64,000 nucleotides of DNA from Stigmatella ashevillena (GTDB taxonomy: Bacteria; Myxococcota; Myxococcia; Myxococcales; Myxococcaceae): positions 868,001 to 932,000 of the forward strand of contig NZ_JAQNDM010000001.1 in NCBI RefSeq assembly GCF_028368975.1, given 5' to 3'. Made by a program: the position numbers and the translations under genes. This document shows positions 14,901 through 52,038 of the stretch, piece by piece. Below the pieces are notes generated by a model. That model was not told the DNA's origin, did not search any database, and saw only the letters and a list, made by a program, of their open reading frames with translations. Position 1 is the first letter of the stretch, and each line of letters opens with the position of its first letter.

Positions 14901-16318
14901 TCGAGCGCATGGTGCTCCAGGTGTGGGAGCAAGTCCTGGGTCTGAGCGGCATGTCAGCGCAGGACGACTTCTTCGAGTTGGGAGGGCAGTCCCTTCAGAC
15001 GATCCAGGTCGCCAACCGGCTCAGTGTCGCATTGGGCCGGGAAGTGCCTGTCGCCACGGTGTTCCGGTACCCGACTGCCGCCGGGCTGGCACAGGCCTTG
15101 GAACACGGCGAGAAGAGCAGCCTGGAGAGCGGAGGGCTGTCCACGGCCATGCTCGCGGACGCGGAGTTGCCCGAGGAGATCGTCCCCCATCTCGCCCCCA
15201 GCCAGAGAGCACCCGCCCCCTTGCGGCAGGTGCTGCTGACCGGAGCCACCGGCTTCGTGGGCGCGCACTTGCTTGACCAACTGCTGCGTCAGACCCAAGC
15301 GAGGGTGGTCTGCCTGGTTCGCGCCCGCGATGAAGTCCATGCCATGGAGCGGCTGCGCGAGGCCATGGCAGGCCAACGGCTGTCCACGGTGAGCCTCGCC
15401 GAGCGGGTCATGGCCGTGCCCGCGGACCTGGGCCAACCGTGGCTGGGGCTGAGTTCCGCGCGCTTCCACAACCTGGCCGCCGAGTGTGACACCCTCATCC
15501 ACAACGCCGCCGTGGTCAGCGTCGTGCGCGAATACGGCAGCCTCCAGGCCACCAACGTGCGCGGCACCCGCGAACTTCTCCGGCTGGCGGCGTCCGTGAA
15601 GCCCAAGCCCCTGCACTACGTCTCGACCCTGGCCGTGGCCCCCCAGGCCAACCTCAGTCCGGAAGTTCCCGAGGCGTTCGTCCCCTCCCACCCAGGTCTG
15701 CGCGACGGCTATCAGCAGAGCAAGTGGGTGGCGGAGCGGCTCGTGCAACAGGCCGCGGAGCGCGGCTTGCCGGTGACGGTCTACCGCCTCGGCCGGGTGT
15801 CCGGCGCGTGGACCAGCGGCATCGTCAACCCACAGGATCTCGTCTGGCGCATCCTGCTGGCCGGCATTCCAGCCGGAGCGCTGCCCCAACTCGATGTGGG
15901 CGAAGTGTGGACACCCGTGGACTACGTCGCCAGCTCGCTCGTCCGCCTCTCGCTCGATTCACACCCCGGCGGGGTCTTCAACGTCACCCCCGCACCTGAA
16001 GTGCGGCTGAGCGAGGTGTTCGGCTGGGTCCGCGACTACGGCTACCCCATTGAGCTATGTTCTGTCCCGGAATGGCGCGCGCGCGTGGCACAAGCCACGG
16101 GAAGCGCCGACAACAGCACCACGCTGGCCTTCTTCGACCTGCGCTCGGGTTCACACGAGCCTACCTTCGGCCTGGGCACCATCCGCAGTGAGCGCGTGCT
16201 CCAGGCCCTGTCCGGCAGCGGGCTGTCCTGTCCGCAGACCGATCGCCTGCTGCTCCACCGATACTTGGACTACTGTGTCGAACAAGGCCTCCTCCAGAGA
16301 CCTCCGAAAACCCGGTAA
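11993..16318 (+). CDS. mxcG: Myxochelin nonribosomal peptide synthetase (C-A-PCP-reductase)
   Basis: 1441 residues, start ATG with AGGGAG 8 nt upstream. Domains in order: condensation (about 10-430, HHIAMDG at 139-145), adenylation (about 455-950, TSGSTGQPNG near 602, NTYGPTEAT, YRTGD), peptidyl carrier (about 965-1035, GGQSLQT with Ser near 1000), and a C-terminal NAD(P)-binding thioester reductase (about 1080-1435, starting LLTGATGFVGAHLL). The homologous S. aurantiaca enzyme activates lysine, acylates both amines with DHB, and releases the product reductively to an aldehyde then alcohol (myxochelin A). No thioesterase is present, consistent with reductive release. The single C domain must act twice, on the alpha and epsilon amines. 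Confidence 0.95.
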   Translation: MRDSQEARRPLSAAQHGIWLGQQFDLKSPVYNAGECIEICGPVDPALFEAAVRQAVSEAEALHVRFVASEGGPQQLLGTQADWTLHTADLSETADPWAAVQTWMKADLAQTVDLSRGPLFTEALFKAAPGRFFWYQRVHHIAMDGFGFSLLARRVADVYTAKAAGRPVTGGFGSFQAVLDEDVAYRNGPQYELDRAFWMERFADRPTPVSLASPAPMSSSFVRQTRFLASQSMEQLQAVSRTAGLNWPDLMLAATAVYLHRLTDAAEVVLGLPVMTRLGSAALRVPCMAMNIVPLRVPVNPEDSLLDVARGVAAEVRAMRPHLRYRYEQLRRDLKMVGGQRRLFGPVVNIMPFDYALRFAGIPTIAHNISAGPVEDLSIGLYARSDGKGMRMDFDANPACYEAKDLEAHQGAFLELLESLVAAPGQAVGQPQVQSPGHLPLSSILDGGPLPAPPRPVLELIAERAREQPDAIAVEHGQHQLSYRELLQNAQALSDQLVREGVQPNTPVAVMLPRGLDAIVASLGVLFSGAGYLPLDPQGPSSRTAAILEDAKPTLIIQRASPDADVMARGNLVIRKNEAAPATAASPQVPTEGDHLAYIIYTSGSTGQPNGVQISQNALAHFVAGATHRYGVQRGDRVLQFAPLHFDASVEEIFLTLCAGAKLVLRTEEMLQSVPRLLDACAEHGITVLDLPTAFWHELAYSVSTGAARLPSSIRLVIIGGEAALPERVVRWRAAVGADVLLLNTYGPTEATVVATTAPLSGPLSAGAPEEEIPIGRPLPGVRTALIDAHGKLAAPGTEGELYLLGGGLARGYLGRPELNAVRFTSLDVLPGSPRAYRTGDKARVREDGQLVFTGRVDDEFKISGHRIDPTEIETVLLAHAGVREAAVVGQILPGGTRRLCAHIVAEMPAPAAAELRRHLLAELPAAMVPSAFVFSEKLPRTSTGKLDRNTLRLTLPPEDSAPTADATAFERMVLQVWEQVLGLSGMSAQDDFFELGGQSLQTIQVANRLSVALGREVPVATVFRYPTAAGLAQALEHGEKSSLESGGLSTAMLADAELPEEIVPHLAPSQRAPAPLRQVLLTGATGFVGAHLLDQLLRQTQARVVCLVRARDEVHAMERLREAMAGQRLSTVSLAERVMAVPADLGQPWLGLSSARFHNLAAECDTLIHNAAVVSVVREYGSLQATNVRGTRELLRLAASVKPKPLHYVSTLAVAPQANLSPEVPEAFVPSHPGLRDGYQQSKWVAERLVQQAAERGLPVTVYRLGRVSGAWTSGIVNPQDLVWRILLAGIPAGALPQLDVGEVWTPVDYVASSLVRLSLDSHPGGVFNVTPAPEVRLSEVFGWVRDYGYPIELCSVPEWRARVAQATGSADNSTTLAFFDLRSGSHEPTFGLGTIRSERVLQALSGSGLSCPQTDRLLLHRYLDYCVEQGLLQRPPKTR

Positions 16319-16336
16319 CGCCACACGGTCCATCCC

Positions 16337-17797
16337 ATGTCCTCACCTCGAAACGGCCCTTCCGTGTTGAACCCAAATTGGACTCCTGGCTCCTGGAGAG
16401 AGAAGCCCGTCAAGCACATGCCGGACGACTACCCCGATGCCCGTGAACTCGCGCGCGTCGAAGGGGAGCTGTCACGTCTTCCCCCTCTGGTGTTCGCGGA
16501 GGAGACCCGCCGGTTGACCGCCGCGCTCGGACAGGTCGCCGAGGGCAAGGCCTTCCTGCTCCAGGGAGGAGACTGCGCGGAGAGCTTCAAGGAATTCACG
16601 ACGGACAATGTCCGCGACAGCTTGCGGCTGATCCTCCAGATGGCCATGGTGCTGACCTTCTCGGGAGGCCGCCCCGTGGTGAAGGTCGGCCGGATCGCCG
16701 GCCAGTTCGCCAAGCCGCGCAGTGGCGCCACCGAAACCATCGAGGGCGTCACGCTGCCTGCCTATCGTGGCGACATCATCAACGGCATGGATTTCGAGCC
16801 CGGCGAGCGCAAGCCCGATCCCACACGGCTGCTCAAGGCCTATCACCAATCCTCGGATACCCTGGGCCTGCTGCGCCTCTTCTCCCAGGGCGGTTATGCG
16901 GACCTGCTCAACATGCACCGCTGGACCTTCGACTTCGTCGCGGACAGCGTCCAGGGCGGCCAGTACCGGAAGCTGGCGGACAAGATCCTCGAGTCCCTGC
17001 GCTTCATGAGCGCGCTGCACGTGAGCCCCGGCCAGCAGATGCCCCTCAACCGGGTGGACATGTTCACCAGCCACGAAGCGCTGCTGCTGAACTACGAAGA
17101 GGCCATGACCCGGGCCGATCCTGTCTCGGGAGACTGGTACGACAGCTCCGCCCACATGTTGTGGATTGGCGAGCGGACGCGCCAGCTCGACGGAGGCCAC
17201 GTGGAATTCATGCGTGGCATTCAGAACCCCATTGGCCTGAAATGCGGGCCGACGATGGAGCCCGAGGATCTGCTGCGGCTCATCGATCTCCTGAACCCCG
17301 AGGCCATTCCTGGCAAGCTGACGCTCATCGGCCGGTTTGGAGCAGACAAGATCGCAGAGCGTCTGCCCCGGTTGATGGCCGCCACCAAGCGCCATGGAAG
17401 CCCCGTCGTCTGGTCGACCGACCCCATGCATGGCAATACGCTCAAGGCCCGCAACGGGTACAAGACCCGGCCCTTCGACCGCATTCTGTCCGAGGTGAAG
17501 ACATTCGTTCAGGTCGCCACCTCCGAGGGCGTTCACCCCGGAGGGCTGCACCTGGAGATGACGGGCCAGAACGTCACCGAGTGCCTGGGCGGCGCGCAGG
17601 AGGTCACCGAAGACGACCTGTCCAGCCGATACCACACGCATTGCGATCCGCGGCTCAACGCCAACCAGGCCTTGCAGCTGGCCTTCCTGGTGGCGGACAA
17701 GCTCCAGTCTCTGCGGGTCCCCGAAGTCTGGGCGGCGGCCACGACAGACTCCTTGACAGAGATGTCTGGAAAGGGGTACCACGCGGCACCGAAATGA
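16337..17797 (+). CDS. aroA(A5): Class II DAHP synthase dedicated to the siderophore locus
   Basis: 486 residues. Plant-type (class II) 3-deoxy-D-arabino-heptulosonate-7-phosphate synthase, condensing PEP and erythrose 4-phosphate, the entry step of the shikimate pathway. Landmarks: WREKP near the start, [46 protein letters not shown], and the C-terminal [17 protein letters not shown]. No clear Shine-Dalgarno precedes 16337, but the N-terminal Trp-rich segment is conserved in the family, so a later start is unlikely. It sits 18 bp after mxcG and its stop overlaps the mxcH start. The implied role is boosting chorismate supply under iron starvation, outside normal aromatic feedback; the lack of feedback is inference. 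Confidence 0.93.
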
Positions 17798-41801: not shown

Positions 41802-41851
41802 TGTTCACTCTGATGTTCACTGTCTGACAGGGCACAGGGGGAGGGCTCCTT

Positions 41852-41880
41852 GAGCGTCCGTACCGGATTCGAGGACGCTC
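41852..41880 (+). promoter_or_regulatory. Hairpin between opgH and the nuclease-ATPase module
   Basis: GAGCGTCC (41852-41859) and GGACGCTC (41873-41880) are perfect 8-bp arms with a 13-nt loop, ending 6 bp before the next gene's GTG. The right arm includes the only purine-rich ribosome-site candidate, so the stem could terminate opg transcription, act as an operator, or hide the ribosome site. Confidence 0.45.
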
Positions 41881-41886
41881 CGTGCC

Positions 41887-43170
41887 GTGTCCCCTGCTCC
41901 CGCTGCCCTTCAGAGCGATGCCGCGGCTTTCCAAACGCTGGAGCGGCATCAACACCGGCGTGAGCAGGCCATCCCCACCCTCACCGTGCTCTCCGGCCCC
42001 CCCGGCACCGCCATGTCCCTGTGGCGCCGCTGGCTGGAGTCCCGGGGCCAGGGGTGGTGCGTGTCGCTGGCCTCGCGCGAAGCCGAGGCCATCCGAGACT
42101 GGATCGAATTCCTCTTCCGGACCCGGAACCTCGAGGCCGATGCGGCAGATGTTCTCGGCGCTGCGGCAGGGCTCTCCCAGGGAGTGCTGTTCTCCCAGTT
42201 GAAGGGCAAGACCGCGCACGAACGGGACTTGCTCCTTCAGGAACTGTTCCCGGCCATTCCGGGCACGGATGCCGCCTCCGTGTGCCGGTGTCTGCTCCAA
42301 CCTCGCGCGGCGCCTTCCGCGCCAACAGCCTGGCCTGGCCTGCTCACCGCCTGCGAGCAGAACCCCCTGCGTGCGTTCGCCGCAGTGCATGCCCTCCTTC
42401 CCCCCGGCGAGGCCCCCGCACTCCTGCTGGCGGGCGTGGGGCCCGGCTGGCTGGCCCAGGCCGCCCGGGCCACCGCCCGGATGTGTGACACGGTGCCCAC
42501 GCTGACAGCCGCCCTCTCCGTGGAAGAACAGGCGGTGGAGTTTTACCTGAACGGAGAGGAAAGCCAGGGCCGGGCCCTGGTCCGCGAAGGGCTGTTGGTG
42601 CTGAAGGCCGTGTCCTCCCAAGCCCTGAAGAAACGCGTGGAAGCCCTCGGCGTCCGGGACACGGAGGCCCTCTCTCAATCCCTTTCCCGGCTGGCGGCGG
42701 ACGGGGCTCCAGACGAGGTGCTGACCCTCTATGGAGGGGCGGCACGCGAGCGGGAGACCGCCACGGCCCAGCCCGAGGCAGAGGGCCAGGCGCGCAGCGA
42801 GGCTGAGCGCTTCCTGAGCGCACTGCTCGAGGCCCTGCCCGCCACCCGGGGACTCTTTGAACTCAACCAACGCACCGGGTTTCGCATCAACAACCGGCCC
42901 GTGGAGGTAGACCTCCTCTCGCGGCGATTGAAGCTGGCCATCGAAATCGATGGCTACTACCACTTCCAGACGCCCGAGGCCTACCGGCGCGACCGGCGCA
43001 AGGACCTGGCCTTGCAAAAACATGGCTACCTGGTGCTCCGGTTCCTCGCCAACGATGTGGTGGCGCGGCTCGAGGAAATCCGCGACACTGTCCTGGAGGT
43101 TGTCTCTCTGCGGCACAACGCGGCAGGGCGGTTGTCAGCATATGGGGAGGATGCACATGACCGGGACTGA
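41887..43170 (+). CDS. DUF559-type nuclease with degenerate P-loop N-terminus (module gene 1)
   Basis: 427 residues from a GTG at 41887. The N-terminal region has LSGPPGTAMSLWRRW (37-44 is Walker-A-like but lacks the Lys, so probably non-hydrolytic). A helical middle (about 100-300) has no recognised domain. Residues about 305-410 are a DUF559/VSR-like PD-(D/E)XK nuclease: ELNQRTGFRINN, RPVEVDLL, LAIEIDGYYHF, YRRDRRKDLALQKHGYLVLRF. The Glu/Asp residues expected for metal binding (EVD and EID) are present. Its 3' end overlaps the next gene by 14 bp, and the three genes run in one direction, so a complex is likely. DNA cleavage is inferred from the family. Confidence 0.7.
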   Translation: MSPAPAALQSDAAAFQTLERHQHRREQAIPTLTVLSGPPGTAMSLWRRWLESRGQGWCVSLASREAEAIRDWIEFLFRTRNLEADAADVLGAAAGLSQGVLFSQLKGKTAHERDLLLQELFPAIPGTDAASVCRCLLQPRAAPSAPTAWPGLLTACEQNPLRAFAAVHALLPPGEAPALLLAGVGPGWLAQAARATARMCDTVPTLTAALSVEEQAVEFYLNGEESQGRALVREGLLVLKAVSSQALKKRVEALGVRDTEALSQSLSRLAADGAPDEVLTLYGGAARERETATAQPEAEGQARSEAERFLSALLEALPATRGLFELNQRTGFRINNRPVEVDLLSRRLKLAIEIDGYYHFQTPEAYRRDRRKDLALQKHGYLVLRFLANDVVARLEEIRDTVLEVVSLRHNAAGRLSAYGEDAHDRD

Positions 43171-44173
43171 GGTGTCTCGCGTAGGCGAACTGGCGCTCTT
43201 GTGGCTACTGACGCGTGCGCAAGGAAAGGGCTCTCGGAATGACTTGTCCCGGGCACTGAAACCCTTCGTCGAGCACCGCTGGAGCAGCGGAGAGTGGAGC
43301 ACCCAGCTCGACGGCTCCCTGGCCACGTTGGAAGCAGGCGGGCTCGTCCAGCAGACCGCGCGCAAGGGTCTGAACCTCACGGACGAAGGCCGTCAACGGG
43401 CGGTGGAGGCCCTCGGGGTGGAGCGGCCGCCCAAGGGCCTGACCTGGCAACAACTGCGGCTCAAATACCTGACGGCGAAGTCCCTGGGGCTCTCGCCCTC
43501 GGCCAGCCATGTGAACCGGCTGGGAAGCGCGGATGGCCTGCGGGCCGTCCTCGTGCAGAAACAGACCGGAATCGGAGAGCCGGGCACCCGGAGCCTGACC
43601 CAGGTCCGGGACGCGCTGTGCTGGAAACAGCTCGGGGTGGACTCGGACAAACCCTTCACCCTGTCGGCCGTGCAGTCCTTCCTGCTCGGCAAGGTGCTCC
43701 AGGCCTCGCGCGAGGTGAGCCCAGCACAGGCCCTGCAACAGCTCGCCGCCCGGAGCGTGGGCGCACGGCGCACGGGCGCGGAGAGCCTCCGGCTGGCGGC
43801 CCTGCAATCCTGGGCCATTCCCACGTCAGAGGCCGAACCCCTCATCGCGGAGACCAAACCTCTCCCCCCAGAGGCCGAACCCCTTCCCGTCGAGGAAGCG
43901 CTGTCCTCCTTCGCCGAGCGCGTGCTGCACACCGCCCGTTCCGCGACGAGCGGACGCTTCGGGGATGACCGTGTCTTCATCTCCCACATCTGGCGCGCCA
44001 TGCGGGACCCCAACCTGGACGAACAGTCCTTCAAAAACCGGCTGGTCGAGGCCAACCAGAAGCGCCTTCTGTCCTTGAGCCGCGCTGACATGGTCGAGCT
44101 GATGGATCCCGCGGACGTTGCCGCCTCGGAGACCCGCTACCTCGGCGCCACCTTTCACTTCATCGCCCTGTAG
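43157..44173 (+). CDS. Winged-helix-type protein (module gene 2)
   Basis: 338 residues from the ATG at 43157, chosen because GGGGAGG (43144-43150) lies 6 nt upstream. N-terminal residues about 8-80 look like a winged helix (VGELALLWLLTRAQ, LDGSLATLEAGGLVQQTARKGLNLTDEGRQRA). The C-terminal 90 residues (FAERVLHTARSATSGRFGDDRVFISHIWRAM, LVEANQKRLLSLSRADMVELMDPADVAASETRY, then GATFHFIAL) form a second helical-wing block with strongly patterned residues that I have the impression recurs beside ATPases of the kind encoded next. Between them is an Ala/Leu-rich stretch with a Glu/Pro linker. Probably a DNA-binding or adaptor subunit; function unproven. Confidence 0.6.
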   Translation: MTGTEVSRVGELALLWLLTRAQGKGSRNDLSRALKPFVEHRWSSGEWSTQLDGSLATLEAGGLVQQTARKGLNLTDEGRQRAVEALGVERPPKGLTWQQLRLKYLTAKSLGLSPSASHVNRLGSADGLRAVLVQKQTGIGEPGTRSLTQVRDALCWKQLGVDSDKPFTLSAVQSFLLGKVLQASREVSPAQALQQLAARSVGARRTGAESLRLAALQSWAIPTSEAEPLIAETKPLPPEAEPLPVEEALSSFAERVLHTARSATSGRFGDDRVFISHIWRAMRDPNLDEQSFKNRLVEANQKRLLSLSRADMVELMDPADVAASETRYLGATFHFIAL

Positions 44174-44208
44174 AGCGTTCACGCTGTCCGGCAACTGGGG
44201 GAGTGCCC

Positions 44209-47200
44209 ATGCATCCGAACGATCTCCGTCTTGCTTCTTTTCTCTCCGACCGCACCGAGGTCTTCCACTCCATCCAGCACCGTCATGAGATCTGGCGGGA
44301 GGATCCGTTCGACGTCGAGACGGTCCACCAGGGGGCCCGGGCCACCTTCGAGCGCCTGCTCCTGAGGGCCACCACGCCTCCCGGCCTGGACTCGGGACGC
44401 ATCCTGCTCCTGCTCGGAGACTCGGGCTGCGGCAAGACGCACCTGCTGCGAGCCTTCCGGACCCTGGCCCATGAGCGCTCCCTGGGCTTCGTGGGCTACA
44501 TGCAGATGACGACGTCCACGAGCAACTACGGGCGCTACGTCCTCTCCAACCTCATCGACTCCCTGGACCAGCCCTACCATGAGTCCACCGAGTCCCGCTC
44601 TGGCCTGCGGAAGCTCTCGGATCTGCTGCTCTCTCACTGTGGCAAGGTGGCGGCCCTGCTCGCCAATCCGGAGCAGGACGCGGAGGACATCCCTCACCTC
44701 GTCGAGACCGCCGCGGATGATCTGCAAAAGCAGGAGCGCTTCAAGAAGCTCGACCTGGACCTGCTGCGCGCCCTGCTCTTTCTCCAGCGAGACGACACGC
44801 GCATCCGCAGCCGGGTCCTCAAGTACCTGCGCTGCGAGGACCTGTCCGGCAACGATCGCAAGGTGCTGGGCGAGCTGGTCCCTCGCATCCATGACAACCA
44901 CCCCCAGGAGATGGTGGAGCACCTGGGTCAGCTCTCCGCCGTGCTCGGCCATTCTCTGGTGCTGTGCGTGGACCAGCTCGAGGGCTTCGACATCGAGGCC
45001 TCGAACGCCCAGGCCTTCCGCCGGGCCATGCACCTGCTGTGTGACTTCGCGGAGCGAGCCCCCTCCTCGGTCATCGTCATCAGCTGCTTGCACACCTTCT
45101 GGACGGGTCTCCGGGGCCAGCTCACCCAGTCCCTGCTGGACCGCATCGAGCGGGATCCGGACACCCTCAAGTTGGAGAACCTGCGCACGGCCGAGGAGGC
45201 CCGGCTCATCACCGAGCGTCGACTGGAGCACCTGTACGCGGTCGAGAATGCCCCGTTCGATCCCGCCGAGCCCGCGTTCCCCTTCCCTCATGAAGGCTTC
45301 GAGAAGCTCGCGGGCTTGAGCACCCGCGAGGTGCTCGATGCCTGCCGCCTCTGGCGTGAACAGGCCAACCGCACGGGCGCATTGCCCGAACACTTCCCCT
45401 TGCAGGCCTCCGTCTCCCAGAAGAAGTCCCACGCCAAGGACGATGAGCGAAAGGTGCTAGAGCTGGACCAGCTCTGGAACGACTTCCGTTCCACCCACTC
45501 CACGCCGCCTCCCGAAGAAGATTCCCAGCTCGCCGAGCTACTCGTCTGGGCCCTCCGGACCAGCGCGGAGGAAGTCGAGACGGGACACCGTTTTGAGGCA
45601 CGCCGGGTCGGCGAGTCCATCCAGGTGGATGTCTCTCCAGGAGACGAGAAGCTGCACCTGGCCCTCTGCAACAAGGGCACCCAACGCGGCGGCCTCGCCA
45701 ACCAGATTGAGCAGACCCGGAAGGAGGCCCGAGGCCGTACCCCTGTGGTCATCCGCACCAGCGATTTTCCAAGCAATCCCAAGACAACCACCGCCGTCAA
45801 CCTCGGCAAGCTCATCAGCAAGGGCGGACGCCGTGCGGTGCTGGAGGACAGCGACAGCCGTGCCTTGCTGTCCCTGCGCAACTTCCGTCAGCAGCATGAG
45901 TCCCGCCCCGACTTCGCCTCCTGGTTGCGCTCGGCCAAGCCCCTTACCCAGCTCAAGCCGCTGCGGGACATCCTCGACCTGGACCACCTGCGGTCCAAGA
46001 CATCCCTGGAGACGCGCCCTCCGGAGACCCAGGTCATCCCTCCGGCCAAAGACACGCCCGAGAAAGCATCCACGCCCAGGCAGCAAGTCGCTCCTACCGA
46101 CGTCCCCAAGATCAAACTCCCAGAGCCGCCGATCAAACCTCCGGAGACGGTCACCTCACGGTCCGCGCAGCGCAGCGCCGTTCGAATCGGCGAGGAGGAG
46201 AGCCTGCTGCGGGAGCCCGTCCTGCTCAGTCCCAACGAGCTGACGCAGCATGCGGCGTTTCTGGGCGGTCCCGGCAGCGGCAAGACCACGCTCGCCCTCA
46301 ACGTGATCGAGCAACTGCTTCTCCAGGGCATCCCCGCCATCCTGGTGGACCGGAAGGGAGATCTCGCGGGCTACGCCTCCGAAGCCTTCTGGACCCGTCC
46401 CCTGGAAGACGCCCGCCGCACGGAGCGCCGCGCCTTGCTTCAGGAGCGGCTCGATGTGGCCCTCTTCACCCCGGGCCACCCCAATGGCCGCCCCCTGGCC
46501 ATTCCCATCGTGCCGGAGGGGCTGAACACCCTTCCCGAGTTCGACCGTCAGCAGGGAACCCGCCATGCCGCCGAGGCGCTGGCGGGCATGCTGGACTACC
46601 GGAACAGTCCCAAAGACAAGTCCTGCCGAACGTTGCTCACCCAAGCCATCGATCAGTTCATCCAGCTCTCGAGTGAAGACGTCACCCTGCCGAGGCTCGT
46701 CCGCTTCATCGGGGACAAGGATCCGCGCTTGGTGAATGCCGCGGGCCGGTTGGACACGAAGCTGTTCGACAAGGTGGCCGACGATCTGGACCGGCTCAAC
46801 CTGGATGCCCGGCTGCTCCTGGGGCGCGATGCCGAGAAGCTCGACATGGACCTGCTGCTCGGCCGGGGCGCGCACGCGAAGCCGGGCAAGACGCGCCTGA
46901 GCATCCTGAGCACCAAGTTCCTCGGGGACAACAACAACGTCCTCTTCTGGGTGTCCCAGTTGCTCATCGACGTGACGCGCTGGCTGAGCCGCAATCCATC
47001 TCCGGGGCTCCAGGCCGTCCTCATGTTCGACGAGGCGGACATGTACCTGCCCGCGATGCGCCAGCCCTCCACCAAGCAGCCCCTGGAGAACCTCATCAAG
47101 CGGGCGCGCTCGGCAGGCCTGGGACTGCTCCTGGCCACCCAGAGCCCGGGGGACTTCGACTACAAGTGCCGCGACAACATCCGCTCCTGGTTCATCGGCC

Positions 47201-47442
47201 GCGTGAAGGAGCGGACGTCACTGGAGAAGATGAAGCCCATGCTCAGCGAGGCCCGGGTGGACTTCACCTCGAAGATTCCCGGCCAGGGCACGGGCGAGTT
47301 CCACGTCGTCCGCAGTGGAAAGGTGGAACGGGTCAAGACCGAGCCCTCCGCGCTCGCCACCGAGCAGCTCTCCGACGATGAGTTGTTGCGCCTCGCCGCG
47401 CGCACCGCCCCGGTAAGCCCCGTCGCCCCCACGGGCTCATGA
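44209..47442 (+). CDS. Dual-ATPase protein: AAA domain plus HerA/DUF87-like domain (module gene 3)
   Basis: 1077 residues from the ATG at 44209, which has GGGGGAG 5 nt upstream (a GTG at 44203 overlaps it). The first ATPase (about 30-380) is AAA/ORC-like: Walker A GDSGCGKT at 70-77, Walker B LVLCVDQLEG at 250-259, sensor VIVISCLHTFW. A middle region (about 440-560) is a beta/alpha block of unknown type (VVIRTSDFPSNPKTTTAVNLG). After a Pro/Lys linker, the second ATPase (about 665-1020) is of HerA/VirB4/FtsK type: GGPGSGKTT at 686-694, ILVDRKGDLAGYA, Walker B VLMFDEADMY, LLLATQSPGDFDYK and WFIGRVKE. Such motors pump or unwind DNA. With the neighbouring nuclease this suggests a DNA-processing or defence complex. 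Confidence 0.78.
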   Translation: MHPNDLRLASFLSDRTEVFHSIQHRHEIWREDPFDVETVHQGARATFERLLLRATTPPGLDSGRILLLLGDSGCGKTHLLRAFRTLAHERSLGFVGYMQMTTSTSNYGRYVLSNLIDSLDQPYHESTESRSGLRKLSDLLLSHCGKVAALLANPEQDAEDIPHLVETAADDLQKQERFKKLDLDLLRALLFLQRDDTRIRSRVLKYLRCEDLSGNDRKVLGELVPRIHDNHPQEMVEHLGQLSAVLGHSLVLCVDQLEGFDIEASNAQAFRRAMHLLCDFAERAPSSVIVISCLHTFWTGLRGQLTQSLLDRIERDPDTLKLENLRTAEEARLITERRLEHLYAVENAPFDPAEPAFPFPHEGFEKLAGLSTREVLDACRLWREQANRTGALPEHFPLQASVSQKKSHAKDDERKVLELDQLWNDFRSTHSTPPPEEDSQLAELLVWALRTSAEEVETGHRFEARRVGESIQVDVSPGDEKLHLALCNKGTQRGGLANQIEQTRKEARGRTPVVIRTSDFPSNPKTTTAVNLGKLISKGGRRAVLEDSDSRALLSLRNFRQQHESRPDFASWLRSAKPLTQLKPLRDILDLDHLRSKTSLETRPPETQVIPPAKDTPEKASTPRQQVAPTDVPKIKLPEPPIKPPETVTSRSAQRSAVRIGEEESLLREPVLLSPNELTQHAAFLGGPGSGKTTLALNVIEQLLLQGIPAILVDRKGDLAGYASEAFWTRPLEDARRTERRALLQERLDVALFTPGHPNGRPLAIPIVPEGLNTLPEFDRQQGTRHAAEALAGMLDYRNSPKDKSCRTLLTQAIDQFIQLSSEDVTLPRLVRFIGDKDPRLVNAAGRLDTKLFDKVADDLDRLNLDARLLLGRDAEKLDMDLLLGRGAHAKPGKTRLSILSTKFLGDNNNVLFWVSQLLIDVTRWLSRNPSPGLQAVLMFDEADMYLPAMRQPSTKQPLENLIKRARSAGLGLLLATQSPGDFDYKCRDNIRSWFIGRVKERTSLEKMKPMLSEARVDFTSKIPGQGTGEFHVVRSGKVERVKTEPSALATEQLSDDELLRLAARTAPVSPVAPTGS

Positions 47443-47464
47443 CCGATCCCCTCATTCTCCTGAT

Positions 47465-47490
47465 ACTCCCTTCGAGGCAGTGAGGGGAGT
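47465..47490 (+). terminator. Possible hairpin after the dual ATPase
   Basis: ACTCCC (47465-47470) and GGGAGT (47485-47490), extended by further weak pairs, lie 22 bp after the ATPase stop. There is no U tract, and the right arm also contains the ribosome site of the next gene. Confidence 0.3.
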
Positions 47491-47496
47491 TCTGGA

Positions 47497-48408
47497 ATGA
47501 GCGGGCACTACCCAAGGATCCGCATCATGGCGAAGAATGGCTCCCTCATCGTTCGTGAGGGTTTGAGCTTCACATTCTTCATGCGACACACCCACACGGA
47601 AGTGGCATAGGCAGTCGAACTGGCGTTGGAAGCCTACCTGAGCGCCATCGGGCCAAGTGCTATCGGCTGGTATATTGATCCGGAAGGTGAGTATCAAAAG
47701 CTGGATGGCACCGGCTGGGTACTCACACGGCAGAAGTTGCGCGAGGGGCGTGGCGGCATCACCCGGCTCTATGACGCACCGGGAAGCGGCGAACCATATC
47801 GCTTCGAATACTACGGCAAAGATCTCCTCACCCCCGCTTTGCACGACACGCAAAACGCGACGTGCGCCCTGAGTTGCTGGCTACCAACGGAGTTCTTGGA
47901 GGAACACGGACCCCACCGTGTTCGAGAACTGGCGTTGCAGATTGCCCGACCCCTCCCCTATTGCTCTGGCTATGCAGGACTGTCCTTCAACGGCGAACTG
48001 GATCTGGTAGGCGTCGAGCAGAAAATCGCTCCGCACTGCTTCCGCCATCCAGGCATCGATGTTCCCTGCTTGGAATCGCTCGGCTGGACGTTGGGCACAC
48101 GCTTCAGAGGTCCGGCATGGCTGACATTCCTCGGCCAGCCGCTTCTTGGAGAACTCGGAGGTCCCGCTGCCCTGCGTTCCCGCCTCCACGCGGCCGGAAC
48201 CACCGTGCAGGAAATGGAGGGCGACAAGGTCTTCATCACGCTCGGTCCATGGCCCGAGGCCGGTGATACCTCGCGTGGCGACAACCTCCCCCCCTATCGC
48301 GAGCTGGCTCACGTGTTGGCGCCCTGGCTCTTCCATGAGCCGAACGGGCAGATGCCCTGCCTCCGCGACGAAGACGTACGCCACTGGGAACGCCGCTTCC
48401 TGGACTGA
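47497..48408 (+). pseudogene. DUF3396 (type VI immunity family) gene broken by an in-frame amber codon
   Basis: An ATG at 47497 with GAGGGGAG just upstream starts a frame reading MSGHYPRIRIMAKNGSLIV and on to TEVA, then TAG at 47608-47610, then continues in the same frame with AVELALEAYLSAIG to a TGA at 48408. Without the TAG the product would be about 302 residues, matching DUF3396 proteins in both halves (SFTFFMRH before, and YCSGYAGLSFNGEL, LGTRFRGPAWLTFLG, ITLGPWPEAGDTSRGDN after). In relatives the position after EVA is often Gln, so CAG to TAG is the simplest origin. No type VI secretion genes are nearby. It may be a recent pseudogene; readthrough or restart at the TTG at 47626 are less likely alternatives. 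Confidence 0.75.
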
Positions 48409-48471
48409 GCTCACCTCCTCTTTGTCCTCCGCCTGGATCTGGTAGGGTCCTATCTCGGAGGTTCTCCCGCA

Positions 48472-49344
48472 GTGTGCCTACCTATTACTTTGGTCGCGCT
48501 TGTGCTCCTCCTCGTAGGAGCCGAGGCACAAGCCCAGCCGAGCACCACCCGAGAGCAACGGCAGCGGCCTCTCACTGTCACCGGGAATCCTGCTGAGCCG
48601 CCGCACGAGATCCGCGTGGCCAAGGGCGTCATCACGGTGCTCCGCACAGACACTCCGATCAAGCGGGACGCGATTGAGGTGGATGGGCGTGGCACTCGAA
48701 TCACGGTGGACGTAGGCGATAGCTCCATCATCCTCGAACCTCTGCTCGAGCTTGGATCCGCTGAGCGCCTGGTTCTGCGCGTACCCTTCGCGGACGGTCA
48801 CGCTCCGGCACAAGCGGTGTTCGTTCTCATGCCAAGTCCGTCCGACGTGGACACACGGATCGACGTGGTACGGCGCGTGCTGCCGGATCCAGCTTGCCAG
48901 GCACCGGCTGCACCATGCGCCGCAGTCACCTCGGCAGATGCCGTCACATCCGGTCTGATCGACGATAGCGGCGTTCAAACCGGAGCGGTTCCCAGCTTCA
49001 TCGACACTGCGAGCGGCTTTGAGTCGCAAGAAGGTGTGTTCTACCGCGCGTGGAATTGGGTGCTGGTGGAAGTGGAGGTCATTCCCCCATCTGGACACCC
49101 CTCGTGGAGGCCAACCCGAGCCATGGTGACGAGCAAGACCGGCAGTGCAGTACCGGTGCGGGCGATGAAAGCAGAGCCGAGCCAGCGATCTCCAGGGAGG
49201 GGGGTGCGGGTGTTCGTAGAAATGGACGTACCGGCTCCCACTGCGGGGCTTGAATTCGTGCTTCAACTGCACGGCGGGGCTGATGCGCCTTCCCTCTCGA
49301 TTCCCACAGTGAAACTGCCGCCAGCAAAGGAGGACAAGCGATGA
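48472..49344 (+). CDS. DUF2381 (TIGR02268) secreted myxobacterial protein
   Basis: 290 residues from a GTG at 48472 with GGAGG at 48457-48461. Signal peptide (PITLVALVLLLVGAEAQA-Q). The body is beta-rich with family landmarks: RVAKGVITVLRTDTPI, ILEPLLELGSAERLVLRVPFADG, a Cys pair near 143-149, and FYRAWNWVLVEVEV. DUF2381 proteins are a myxobacterial paralogous family usually encoded next to Ser/Thr kinases, as here (ATGA overlap with the kinase start). Probably periplasmic and perhaps a sensor partner; no activity is known. Confidence 0.85.
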   Translation: MCLPITLVALVLLLVGAEAQAQPSTTREQRQRPLTVTGNPAEPPHEIRVAKGVITVLRTDTPIKRDAIEVDGRGTRITVDVGDSSIILEPLLELGSAERLVLRVPFADGHAPAQAVFVLMPSPSDVDTRIDVVRRVLPDPACQAPAAPCAAVTSADAVTSGLIDDSGVQTGAVPSFIDTASGFESQEGVFYRAWNWVLVEVEVIPPSGHPSWRPTRAMVTSKTGSAVPVRAMKAEPSQRSPGRGVRVFVEMDVPAPTAGLEFVLQLHGGADAPSLSIPTVKLPPAKEDKR

Positions 49345-51176
49345 TCGGCACAGTCGAGTTATCGCCCGGCACCATCGTTGACGGTTGGCAAGTGGTGGGA
49401 GCCATGGGCAAGGGCGGCTTTGGGACTGTCCACCATGTGGAGAAGGATGGCCAGCCGTGCGCGCTCAAGCTCGCGCTGCACCGAGAGGAGAGCGGCGACG
49501 GTGGGCGGACCCACGCCCGCACACTGCGCGAGGTGCTCATCCTCCTGATGCTGGACCATCCCAACATCGTGAAGCCGCGCTCCTTCGGATACCTGCCCGA
49601 TGGCCGCGTGTACCTCGTGCTGGAGTACGTGGACGGCTGGACGCTGGACCAATGGGTTGAGCGCACGCATCCGACTGCACAGGAGATCGCCCGCGTCTTC
49701 ATGAAGATCGCCGACGCAGCCGCCTATATGCACCGGCGAGGCGTCAAGCACCGGGATTTGAAACTCAAGAACGTCCTGATCCGCAGAGAGGACGGAGAGC
49801 CCATCATCATCGACTTTGGTGCATCGACCTACGAGCACGCCGAGGAGTTGACGGGGGCGGGGCTGCCCCCCGGGACGGATCGTTTCCGCGCCCCGGAAGC
49901 GCTGGGCTTTCTGAGCAAGTTGGGGCGCTTCGGAAAGGAGCGGTACTCGTTCCAAGTGGCGGACGAGATCTTCTCCCTGGGAGTGATGCTCTACGACGTG
50001 CTGACGGACCCCCGCCCCACAGAGCACAAGGGCAAGACTCCCCTCAACAGTCCCGTCCGGTTGATCCCCTTCGGCTCACCGCACAGGGTCAATCCGCGCG
50101 TGCCTCTCGCCATGAGCAACATGGTCATGCACCTCCTGGCGCTTGACCCCAAGCATCGACCCGAGAACATGGAGACAGTACGGCGCGAACTGGAGGAACT
50201 CGCGGAGCACCAGGGGACAGAATACGCAGTGCCGGTACATCTTCCCTCGGAACAAAGAGCACCTGCGCCCGAGGGTAATGAGCGGCCCGGTGAGGTGGCG
50301 CCACCAGAGCTGCGGGGCTGGCCCAGGGTGCGAGCGGTCCCAGGCATGGTGGTTGACCGCATCCGTCGCTGGCCGAACACCATGGCGCTGGCGGGCGTGG
50401 TGGCTGCCGTCATGCTGGCCATTGTGGCTGTCTCTTGGCTCATCCGAGGAGAACGGCCACACTTGCCACTCCCCACCCCGTCCAGAGAGGTCACCACGCC
50501 AACCCTTCCCAGCGCTGGCCCCGCGCTTCCACCTGTGAATTCCTCGCCTGTGTCTGCGCCCGCTCCGACGCACGCATCGGGCCCACTCCCCGCTGCTCCC
50601 GCCACCGCACAGAAGGAAGGTTCACCCGTGAAGACACAGCCCCCAGAAGCCCCCACGGAAGCACGCACCCCACGCGGTTTGAAGACTCCCCCTCGCTTGG
50701 CCTTGTGCAAGGCGCTGCTCCCCGCTGCTGCCATCGCGGCAGGATGCACCGGAGTTCCTGTCAGGCCCGAATCCTTTGAGTGTCCGCCCGGAGCAGTTGA
50801 AGCCATGGAGCGCCTTGGCTGGGACATAGGGGGGAGTGATCGAATCCCCCTCAAACTGGATGAAAGAGGCCCGAGCCGGGGTTATCACTGGTTCACTCCG
50901 GGCCCGGTGACCGGTGTTGTTCCCGCCGAAGCGACCGGCAGCAAGCACGCCCCACCCGGCACCCTCTTTCACGGAAAGCTCTACTTCACCGAGAAGACGG
51001 CGGAATGGCCCCTCGGGGAAGTCATCGCGATTTATGACCACGTAGAGATGCCGGGCAAAGGAAAGTTTCCGGTGTGTGCTGTTTCAACGCTCAACCAAAT
51101 TAGGGAATTGAAGGACGGCACAGCAAAGGCGGCGAGCGTGGCATTCGCAAAGGCTAAAAGACGCTGGGCGCCGTAG
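49341..51176 (+). CDS. Membrane-anchored Ser/Thr protein kinase
   Basis: 611 residues. Kinase domain about 12-290: G-loop MGKGGFGTVH, catalytic Lys in CALKLAL, HRDLKLKN catalytic loop, IIDFGAST (Mg-binding Asp), PEAL in place of APE context, and an insert before helix F. A single membrane helix (about 350-372, TMALAGVVAAVMLAIVAVSWLI) is followed by a long Pro/Thr-rich linker and a C-terminal extracytoplasmic domain (about 455-611) starting LCKALLPAAAIAAGC. All key catalytic residues are present, so it should be active. Translationally coupled to the DUF2381 gene, which may provide or bind the signal. Confidence 0.9.
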   Translation: MIGTVELSPGTIVDGWQVVGAMGKGGFGTVHHVEKDGQPCALKLALHREESGDGGRTHARTLREVLILLMLDHPNIVKPRSFGYLPDGRVYLVLEYVDGWTLDQWVERTHPTAQEIARVFMKIADAAAYMHRRGVKHRDLKLKNVLIRREDGEPIIIDFGASTYEHAEELTGAGLPPGTDRFRAPEALGFLSKLGRFGKERYSFQVADEIFSLGVMLYDVLTDPRPTEHKGKTPLNSPVRLIPFGSPHRVNPRVPLAMSNMVMHLLALDPKHRPENMETVRRELEELAEHQGTEYAVPVHLPSEQRAPAPEGNERPGEVAPPELRGWPRVRAVPGMVVDRIRRWPNTMALAGVVAAVMLAIVAVSWLIRGERPHLPLPTPSREVTTPTLPSAGPALPPVNSSPVSAPAPTHASGPLPAAPATAQKEGSPVKTQPPEAPTEARTPRGLKTPPRLALCKALLPAAAIAAGCTGVPVRPESFECPPGAVEAMERLGWDIGGSDRIPLKLDERGPSRGYHWFTPGPVTGVVPAEATGSKHAPPGTLFHGKLYFTEKTAEWPLGEVIAIYDHVEMPGKGKFPVCAVSTLNQIRELKDGTAKAASVAFAKAKRRWAP

Positions 51177-51228
51177 CCCCTCCAGCCTGGTGACAGCGGT
51201 GGTATCGGAGGCTTCGTGCCACATGGCT

Positions 51229-52038
51229 TCAGCTCAGATGGGGATCTTCCGGCGGGTAGTAGGAGCGCCCCTGCATCGGCTGCAACCCTCCCCCCGGCTC
51301 CTCCAGCTCCACCTCGTCCGAAGGGATGAAGCCTGGCCGGTCCACGCACAACACCGACTGCTCAATCCGCGTGGGGTTGTCGTAGCGGTGGGCAAAGCCC
51401 TTCGGCCAGTGGAAGACCATGCCCTGGAGCACCGCCCTGCCCTGCAGGAGCAAGCCCCCTCCCAGCACCAGCTCGCTCTCCTCCATTTGCTGATGCATGT
51501 GCGTGGGGATGGAGCCTCCCGGCTTGATGCGCAGGCGATAGATGCCGTAGCTGGGCCGCTCGTAAATGATGTCCACGCGGCCGAAGGGCTTGTCCTCCCC
51601 CCCGTAGACGACGTTCCCGTGGCGGCGATGCACCTGAACCGCGGGCACGGCCTGCCCCTCCGGGGCGTCTGGCCACGCAACGCGCACTGTGACCGCCGTC
51701 ACCTGGACATGCGGTGCATCCGGCGAGGGGGGCAGCAACACGTAGCAGGCCACCGCTTCGGCCACCGACTCCAAGGTCTCGAAGCGGCAGGACTCCAGCA
51801 GGAAGCGCAGCTCTCCGGCCAGCCGTCCGTAGTGGACGGTGTGCGCCAGGTGCCCATCCATCGCGGCCTGCCGCGTGTCGAGAAACATGGCCATGTCCAG
51901 GCGCAACCGCTGGACCGCTTCGCCCCCCGGTAGAGAGCTCCCCAGGGTGCACTTCACCGTGAACTCCCTCAACTCGATGACATCCAGGAGACGCCCTTGG
52001 CCATCCGTCTCCACGGGCAGGCGCAGGGGTTCATTCAT
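51229..52038 (-). CDS. FolB-like domain fused to a cupin
   Basis: 269 residues. The N-terminal half (about 18-130) follows the dihydroneopterin aldolase fold (DVIELREFTVKCTLG, RLRLDMAMFLDTRQAA, TVHYGRLAGELRFLLESCRFETLESVAEAVACYVLL) and keeps the substrate-region Tyr (VHYGRL). However, the C-terminal strand where FolB has the catalytic Lys (S-K-P in E. coli) reads VAWPDAP here, so classical aldolase activity is doubtful. Residues about 140-250 are a cupin (IKPGGSIPTHMHQQMEESELVLGGGLLLQG with a metal-type His/Glu set, VFHWPKGFAHRYDN). I infer a pterin-like-binding or scaffold domain joined to a small-molecule cupin; function unknown. Confidence 0.65.
   Translation of the reverse strand: MNEPLRLPVETDGQGRLLDVIELREFTVKCTLGSSLPGGEAVQRLRLDMAMFLDTRQAAMDGHLAHTVHYGRLAGELRFLLESCRFETLESVAEAVACYVLLPPSPDAPHVQVTAVTVRVAWPDAPEGQAVPAVQVHRRHGNVVYGGEDKPFGRVDIIYERPSYGIYRLRIKPGGSIPTHMHQQMEESELVLGGGLLLQGRAVLQGMVFHWPKGFAHRYDNPTRIEQSVLCVDRPGFIPSDEVELEEPGGGLQPMQGRSYYPPEDPHLS

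Follow-up and report, generated by a model that had tools for sequence, protein, structure and literature searches.

We propose, with a probability of roughly 50%, that three adjacent genes of the myxobacterium Stigmatella ashevillena, referred to here as P0001, P0002 and P0003, act against invading DNA, in that a core of motor and adaptor would capture foreign DNA and deliver it to an exchangeable effector. The genes are located on contig NZ_JAQNDM010000001.1 of assembly GCF_028368975.1 (genome size 10.95 Mb), within a stretch of 64,000 nucleotides (positions 868,001 to 932,000), which was analysed as a whole, is called the window and provides all coordinates given below. The three open reading frames lie on the + strand at 41887-43170 (427 amino acids), 43157-44173 (338 amino acids) and 44203-47442, the last encoding 1079 amino acids with a GTG start at 44203 or 1077 with an ATG start at 44209. 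The arrangement described in the original prediction, i.e. three genes on one strand with an overlap of 14 bp between P0001 and P0002 and a gap of 35 bp before P0003, was borne out, with a gap of 29 bp if the GTG start is used. The module comprises the following features:

41887..43170, + strand: P0001, a putative degenerate ORC/Cdc6-like AAA domain plus a DUF559-type nuclease (Pfam, structural model, VIA-align)
42784..43119, + strand: nuclease domain of P0001, residues 300-411 (VIA-align with 3hrl and 3r3p, PDB profile, conserved residues)
43157..44173, + strand: P0002, a putative winged-helix adaptor with winged-helix-like ends flanking a helical middle (structural model, VIA-align)
44203..47442, + strand: P0003, an N-terminal AAA ATPase fused to a C-terminal HerA-type motor (Pfam, PDB profile, Walker motifs)
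45460..46077, + strand: middle domain of P0003, residues 420-625, a candidate inactive restriction endonuclease (no convincing Pfam or PDB match, lower identity than the motor)
46180..47382, + strand: HerA-type motor domain of P0003, residues 660-1060 (Pfam, PDB profile, slowest-evolving part)

The same three genes in the same order were found in all 30 myxobacterial loci that were collected first (the window and 29 loci from other genomes), which is more than can be attributed to chance. A scan of a genome collection yielded 335 relatives in 410 candidate stretches; the counts by locus given here refer to the best 80 of these relatives, a non-random sample since the first query row was a divergent Myxococcota metagenome-assembled genome (MAG). 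These 80 relatives belong to Myxococcota, Planctomycetota, Cyanobacteriota, Nitrosomonas, Thiocystis, Thiorhodospira, Verrucomicrobiota, Bacteroidales and alphaproteobacteria. P0002 was located upstream of P0003 in 76/76 loci with room for it (four had none), but P0001 was present in only 33 of the 68 loci with room (12 had none), that is in 11/11 loci of Myxococcaceae, 0/24 of alphaproteobacteria and 22/33 of the others. The families, for whose co-occurrence the original prediction had suggested a search, thus occur together widely, but since the nuclease is absent from 35/68 loci, the obligate unit is the pair P0002-P0003 and not the trio. The 28 alphaproteobacterial loci stem mostly from Hyphomicrobium or Hyphomicrobiaceae, together with Filomicrobium, Rhodomicrobium, Methyloligella, Devosia and a Hyphomonadaceae MAG, and their lack of a linked nuclease suggests that P0002-P0003 is useful without a nuclease or with an unlinked one. 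When four of these nuclease-less genomes were searched with a P0001 profile, small DUF559-like frames were detected elsewhere in two (L157, L163) and no match in the other two (L143, L164).

The original prediction described P0003 as a protein of 1077 residues joining an AAA ATPase to a HerA/DUF87 motor, and this fusion was confirmed. The ATPase spans residues ~50-340, the middle domain residues 420-625 and the motor residues 660-1060, and the Pfam models AAA_22 (1.2e-11), HerA_C (4.2e-6) and DUF87 (4.8e-5) all exceeded their cut-offs. AAA_16 also passed its cut-off, and the ORC-CDC6-like model stayed below it (15.1 vs 27). In a PDB profile search the motor matched the HerA-like protein YjgR (11kk, 4.7e-11). 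Among aligned homologues (44 rows out of 101, with at least 90% cover), Walker A1 is kept in 43/44 and Walker A2 in 44/44. The middle domain gave no convincing Pfam or PDB match when 43 homologues were searched, and it shares 70-88% identity with its counterparts in three congeners vs 93-96% for the motor; the idea that it represents an inactive restriction endonuclease received no support from its sequence. The Pfam cut-off for BrxC_BrxD was passed by one P0003 homologue (L119, 2.8e-6). Homologues in L119, L128 and L131 carry an N-terminal extension of ~200 residues, which had no listed Pfam match and is by eye perhaps TerB-like. Two apparent gene fusions were rejected: in L141, where P0002 and P0003 seemed to form a single open reading frame, the P0002 C-terminus runs on in another frame, and in L137 and L030 the single frame with P0001 and P0003 is an open frame crossing an overlapping gene.

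For P0002 no family was found in Pfam, PADLOC or NCBIfam, the best PDB profile match was a DtxR-type winged helix (0.012), and Foldseek returned nothing at E ≤0.001 for its structural model (predicted local distance difference test score, pLDDT, of 92; predicted template modelling score of 0.63). Of the two winged-helix blocks originally assigned to it, the N-terminal one stands, as residues 1-114 align by VIA-align with winged helices of MarR/HxlR-like regulators (Z up to 10.5). The VIA-align rows cover mainly these residues, and the helix-strand order of the C-terminal 94 residues, taken from predicted secondary structure, is read as fitting a second winged helix. Mean column identity is 30% for P0002 (56 rows) and 42% for P0003 (44 rows), and this lower conservation of P0002 fits a recognition part.

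The nuclease proposed for P0001 was likewise recovered, with DUF559 at residues 341-406 (Pfam 3e-9); MTES_1575, a second nuclease family (1.7e-5), and one stray match remained under the Pfam cut-off. In the AlphaFold2 model (31 rows, mean pLDDT 88), the C-terminal domain aligns with the endonuclease-like 3hrl (Z 11.5, 92 residues, root-mean-square deviation (rmsd) 2.2) and with the homing endonuclease I-Bth0305I (3r3p; Z 10.9, 96 residues, rmsd 2.5), and 3hrl was also the PDB profile match of the nuclease region (7.5e-6). The class of this nuclease is presumably the one named EDxHD. Eight residues, D342, E353, D355, R368, D369, R370, K372 and D373, are invariant in 41/41 P0001 rows (41 rows out of 51 with at least 85% profile cover, near-copies omitted). 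What had been overlooked is the N-terminal part, which aligns in VIA-align with Cdc6, ORC subunits, TnsC, MuB and RdrA, and also with dynein and RuvBL rows (Z 8.4-10.4, about 160-240 residues, rmsd about 4-8); Cdc6p of Pyrobaculum reaches Z 10.4 over 208 residues. With Foldseek, the whole model had no PDB match at E ≤0.001, the top rows being HslU AAA+ chains. Walker A is kept in 0/41 of the aligned homologues, and P0001 thus looks like a Walker-less ORC-type domain bearing a nuclease.

All three genes are under purifying selection. Compared with three congeners, the ratio of non-synonymous to synonymous substitution rates (dN/dS) was 0.18-0.30 for whole genes and 0.09-0.33 by domain, with the motor evolving slowest (0.09-0.11) and the lowest identity in the middle domain of P0003 and the N-terminus of P0001. 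The flanking genes for OpgG and OpgH had values of 0.11-0.21, from which we conclude that the module evolves somewhat faster than its flanks.

Some match to P0003 was found in 82/144 relatives, part of them motor-only. Within Myxococcaceae (f1), full-length P0003 occurs in seven genera and 51/53 of their genomes, including 5/7 in the genus of the window, and no full-length match was detected in 19 other genera sampled, of which several genomes are incomplete. Its absence in full length from 2/7 genomes of the window's genus and from these 19 genera indicates patchiness, which we count in favour of an action against invaders. In phylum-wide samples, P0002 was present in 64/195 and P0003 (Minicystis query, E 1e-60) in 64/193 genomes; at the same threshold, P0003 was found in 34/249 genomes of the order of Hyphomicrobium (some matches partial or distant) and in 13/120 of the family of Nitrosomonas. 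The window genome encodes a second P0003, 49% identical, on contig 2, together with its own P0001 and P0002. Two genomes of genus g12 also carry a second copy, in their case without P0001 (L041, L037), next to a first copy with it (L040, L036). Shorter HerA-type proteins occur in other f1 genera (L049 9182-11488 and relatives), ~33-36% identical over the motor, and neither P0002 nor P0001 was found beside the one such gene examined (L049). A more distant P0002-P0003-like pair in G155 (L082 1-3685), near genes that appear hydrogenase-like by eye, may represent a second subfamily.

A quick tree of P0003 was calculated from 93 rows after nine, mostly near-copies, had been dropped, and the program issued a long-branch warning. 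In this tree, the 28 alphaproteobacterial rows form one clade, and the Myxococcaceae fall into group A (window and Archangium) and group B (Corallococcus, Citreicoccus, Hyalangium versicolor and the second copy of the window genome). The presence of P0001 requires 11 changes, or at least 8 if the starred branches are right; 11 is a rough number because the contig-end loci L107 and L133 were scored as present and upstream-truncated ones (e.g. L105, L116, L092, L097) as absent. Remnants of P0001 were detected in L104 (1.4e-9) and L132 (8.7e-5), and the P0003 frame of L104 is broken as well.

If the three proteins act against invading DNA, P0002 and P0003 would constitute a chromosomally kept, DNA-recognising motor. 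P0003 probably forms a ring via its HerA domain. The placement of this ring on particular DNA may be due to the AAA domain of P0003 together with the winged-helix protein P0002, and the motor would then pull the DNA and pass it to an effector. In the window, this effector would be P0001, whose Walker-less ORC-like domain could dock to the AAA ring of P0003 and whose nuclease domain would do the cutting. Genes of the caspase, CHAT, TIR or NACHT type may fill this role in some relatives, and no linked effector was seen in alphaproteobacteria. The analysis shows the gene linkage, the domain make-up, the conservation of motif residues, the purifying selection, the optional nuclease and the changed neighbours, and we infer the complex, its substrate, the cutting and the immunity. 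What favours this reading is the DNA-related role of the parts, the retention of the nuclease site, the lower conservation of the adaptor relative to the motor protein and, in one branch, the presence of conflict proteins next to the module.

The latter became apparent among the 11 non-alphaproteobacterial loci that had room for P0001 and lacked it. Six of these, all from myxobacteria outside Myxococcaceae, carry conflict-type genes beside the module, two of them in Minicystis (L106, L110) and one each in Sorangium (L114), Paraliomyxa (L119), a delta MAG (L128) and a Polyangiaceae MAG (L141). The domains comprise Peptidase_C14 (4e-13), EAD5-CHAT (4e-17/5e-8), bDLD3-caspase (5e-28/2e-19), EAD1-trypsin (7e-9/2e-23), NACHT (1e-7), TIR-CHAT (2e-21/1e-9) and TIR-NACHT (5e-19/1e-10). 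In L110, a caspase and an EAD5-CHAT gene stand immediately before P0002, and in L141 a bDLD3-caspase gene follows immediately after P0003; L110 has a homologue of it in this position. A NACHT/STAND gene follows P0003 immediately in L106 and has a WD40-bearing homologue in L114, with EAD1-trypsin further down in both; L119 and L128 carry TIR-NACHT-DUF4062 before P0002, and L119 also TIR-CHAT. Conflict-type genes accounted for 9/31 neighbours in the six loci vs 0/83 control genes (phmmer with the same nine proteins; Fisher 3e-6), the controls being taken from 20 spaced stretches of two genomes only (L106/L110 and L114). Phmmer is less sensitive than Pfam, and in a Pfam tally of the controls none of these families had two or more members among the matches listed. 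These effector types (caspase, CHAT, TIR, trypsin, NACHT, EAD, bDLD) are those of the EAD-coupled NTP-dependent conflict systems, whose core is described as MoxR-vWA, a GTPase or iSTAND (Kaur et al. 2020, PMC7159879), and here they adjoin P0002-P0003. In a more far-reaching and rather doubtful reading, P0002-P0003 would be an ancient DNA-sensing motor, fixed in the chromosome, that offers a shared platform to which different executioners can be fitted. These would be a DNA cutter in Myxococcaceae, Planctomycetota, Cyanobacteriota and Nitrosomonas, while other myxobacteria would use apoptosis-like proteases or proteins of the TIR or NACHT type. A single system would then combine HerA/FtsK capture of foreign DNA with cell-death effectors of the caspase and EAD types.

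The nuclease-bearing loci outside Myxococcaceae provided 20 loci with 103 neighbour genes (up to three per side). Defence-type genes were traced to a protein in at least 3/20 of them: L102, with neighbours matching ThsB (8.6e-115) and ThsA (3e-28), and two cyanobacterial loci, L112 with a Cas12k gene (14936-16789) and L113 with a methyltransferase and an SspH/DndH-like motor piece (13155-13787) near the module. This number is a lower bound because the PADLOC tally of the 103 neighbours also names PDC-S03, PDC-S09, PDC-S17 and mad2 (among the 25 of 81 families listed), the matches of which were not traced to proteins. Defence-island enrichment of these loci was considered after a rich-looking PADLOC tally and set aside as no more than possible when single scans of 20 of the 103 genes, together with reading, left at least 3/20 loci.

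The resemblance to published systems is closest for the HerA/FtsK capture systems, whose ORC/CDC6 subclass was predicted in 2024 and proposed to intercept invader DNA (Rakesh, Aravind, Krishnan; PMC10853773); according to the text of that paper, those with ORC-type ATPases were proposed from sequence, with no bench test reported. The original prediction knew of no named system of this composition, and indeed the set is not named by any model of Pfam, PADLOC or NCBIfam, but the class of architecture is in print there (PMC10853773), namely an AAA ATPase with a HerA/FtsK motor, a winged-helix partner and a nuclease. Here, the motor is represented by the HerA_C, DUF87 and YjgR matches with Walker A2 in 44/44 rows, and the winged-helix partner by residues 1-114 of P0002. 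The published ORC/CDC6 ATPase may correspond to an AAA_22/AAA_16 domain with intact Walker A, for which the ORC-CDC6-like Pfam model stays below cut-off; the active restriction endonuclease, drawn in that paper from two families (one AbiJ-like), may correspond to a nuclease of another type, DUF559, in 33/68 loci; and for the inactive one, placed in that paper between the AAA core and the winged helix-turn-helix, the middle domain of P0003 is a candidate, with no sequence match. Unlike the published systems as set out there (PMC10853773), our module has its DUF559 nuclease joined to a Walker-less ORC-like domain, its P0002-P0003 pair also persists where no nuclease is linked, and it is chromosomal, apparently vertical and found at conserved places in the clades examined, in contrast to their mobile neighbourhood. 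The terms DUF559, EDxHD, Vsr and Myxococc are absent from the main text of PMC10853773, and within the literature searched, in which DUF559 and HerA occur together in papers on Deinococcus methylation and on Aliivibrio, the DUF559 version appears not to be described. We therefore class the module with the capture systems by its presumed way of working, as a variant of what was predicted, and do not claim proven membership. It also resembles HerA-DUF4297, a two-component anti-phage complex in which, as summarised in PMC11291478, the HerA hexamer activates the nuclease by complex assembly, in that a HerA motor is paired with a nuclease partner; it differs in that HerA-DUF4297 has two components only and an unrelated nuclease, and P0003 scored 17.3 bits for HerA_antiphage against a cut-off of 800, far outside that family.

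Several observations weigh against a role in defence. P0003 was found in 46/46 genomes of six further f1 genera (E <1e-140; g23 17/17, g26 16/16, g8 6/6, g12 4/4, g17 2/2, g15 1/1) and in a whole-genome search (E 1e-60) in 100/103 genomes of the family of Hyphomicrobium, a near-universality that is unusual for a defence system. No match was detected in 50,697 phage records, and 72,556 plasmids gave 3 partial matches, none covering 80%. The neighbours of the nuclease-bearing loci are largely housekeeping genes, judged by eye from the first 90 residues of the 103 genes. With regard to the conflict-type genes, the group was picked after its neighbours had been seen, the gene counts are not independent because the six loci represent about three related pairs, and no such neighbour was recognised by eye in 5/11 loci (L091, L100, L104, L131, L132), among them L131, the tree sister of L119/L128. 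The TIR-NACHT gene lies on the opposite strand at L119 and L128, no EAD was detected at E 0.05 in P0002 of L106, L110, L114 or L128 or in P0003 of L141, and none was among the matches listed for P0003 of L119, L128 and L131. Vertical inheritance and mostly housekeeping neighbours are at odds with a classical mobile defence island, and the apparent vertical inheritance, the near-universality in two lineages and the housekeeping neighbours would fit a role in repair or at the chromosome.

Archaeal HerA-type motors carry out resection. P0001-P0003 might process DNA as a housekeeping machine comparable to HerA-NurA of archaea, in which motor and nuclease would resect or clear DNA ends, stalled replication intermediates or chromosome dimers and, in Hyphomicrobium-type genomes, the motor would work with an unlinked nuclease; we regard this as possible, although unlikely. 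Its near-universal and apparently vertical occurrence in the family of Hyphomicrobium and several genera of Myxococcaceae, the fixed housekeeping neighbours, the failure to find mobile copies and the purifying selection are what would be expected of such a machine; yet its distribution is patchy, with the other f1 genera sampled lacking a full-length match and with the low counts (13/120, 34/249) reported above, a second copy of 49% identity in one genome would be odd for a repair enzyme, and the conflict-type neighbours of the six loci would have no place. An improbable alternative is a regulatory or silencing complex, in which motor and winged-helix protein would target the host chromosome or transcription, with the nuclease as a dispensable add-on. 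The MarR/HxlR shape of P0002, the 35/68 loci without P0001 and the two decayed P0001 traces agree with this, but the eight motif residues are invariant in every P0001 row, and P0001 seems to have been kept or regained several times because the tree needs about 11 changes of its presence.

That the module is part of a named defence system, i.e. MADS, BREX-related capture or DndFGH, is very unlikely. MADS operons include a DNA methyltransferase and kinase partners. The motor half of P0003 matches PADLOC mad8 at 9e-26, but this match is unspecific because the same model also matches an ABC-transporter-type ATPase at 3e-18, which weakened membership in MADS; among the 103 neighbours of the 20 nuclease-bearing loci, one DNA methyltransferase was traced (L113) and four members match mad2. 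The DndH match was 0.035, the HerA_antiphage score is given above, and no methyltransferase or PglZ was recognised by Pfam among the eight neighbours in the window. PglZ, DUF4007 and DUF6079 were not recognised among these eight genes nor in the PADLOC tally of the 103 neighbours (25 of 81 families listed), and no search aimed at them was made beyond these two. In favour of such a relation, an ORC-HerA pairing is common to the BREX-related capture systems, which combine an ORC/Cdc6 ATPase with HerA and winged-helix proteins, and inactive STAND/ORC-like domains are known from BrxB and PglW (as outlined in PMC12839542), which P0001 seems to resemble in this respect.

Outside the module, its surroundings were compared between species. 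In Myxococcaceae and Hyphomicrobium-type genomes, the module is located at clade-typical places beside housekeeping genes: in group B it adjoins pabB/pabC-type folate genes (names by eye), and in alphaproteobacteria CAP-domain, D-Ala-D-Ala carboxypeptidase, penicillin-binding-protein or MoeA-like genes (by eye). Downstream of P0003, alphaproteobacteria have a conserved reading frame on the minus strand, and in a Myxococcales MAG (L092 3467-5593, L109 1781-4099) P0003 is followed directly by another large ATPase, which, judged by eye, begins like an AAA protein and ends like an ABC/OLD one. The accessory island originally suggested is not supported on the left, where the order opgG-opgH-module is common to four species of the genus (MdoG by Pfam); only the right flank varies. 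OpgH is present without the module in G013, G034 and G017 and unmatched in G002, G003, G006, G020 and G053, and the opgH-anchored comparison revealed no clean empty site within the genus. The hairpin noted on the left is real:

41830..41890, + strand: stem-loop in the opgH-P0001 interval, touching the P0001 start (RNA fold -30.6 kcal/mol, z -2.28)

Three other species have it in the corresponding position with an altered sequence (z -3.48, -3.66, -4.30). The stem-loop reaches the P0001 start, so that it may control the expression of P0001 or end the opgH transcript. The right neighbour of the module (47497-48408) is a type VI immunity-like gene of family PF11876 (TsiV, 3.6e-54), presumably the former DUF3396. 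It had been described as decayed, and an in-frame TAG indeed parts a short upstream stretch from the open frame, but the domain is nearly whole (profile positions 7-271 of 271); the homologue in G005 (L033 7045-8079) is longer and uninterrupted. Between the module and a FolB/cupin gene (47442-51229), the content depends on the species, with TsiV, DUF2381 and a protein-kinase gene in the window, a shorter stretch in G005 and different genes in G001.

The compact three-gene version of myxobacteria and the two-gene version of Hyphomicrobium-type genomes indicate that motor, adaptor and effector are genetically separable. For the published capture model this raises the question how a presumed defence motor comes to be near-universal in whole genera and one family, seemingly vertically inherited and often without a linked nuclease. 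If the caspase, CHAT and TIR neighbours are real partners, DNA-pulling motors would trigger apoptosis-like responses in bacteria.

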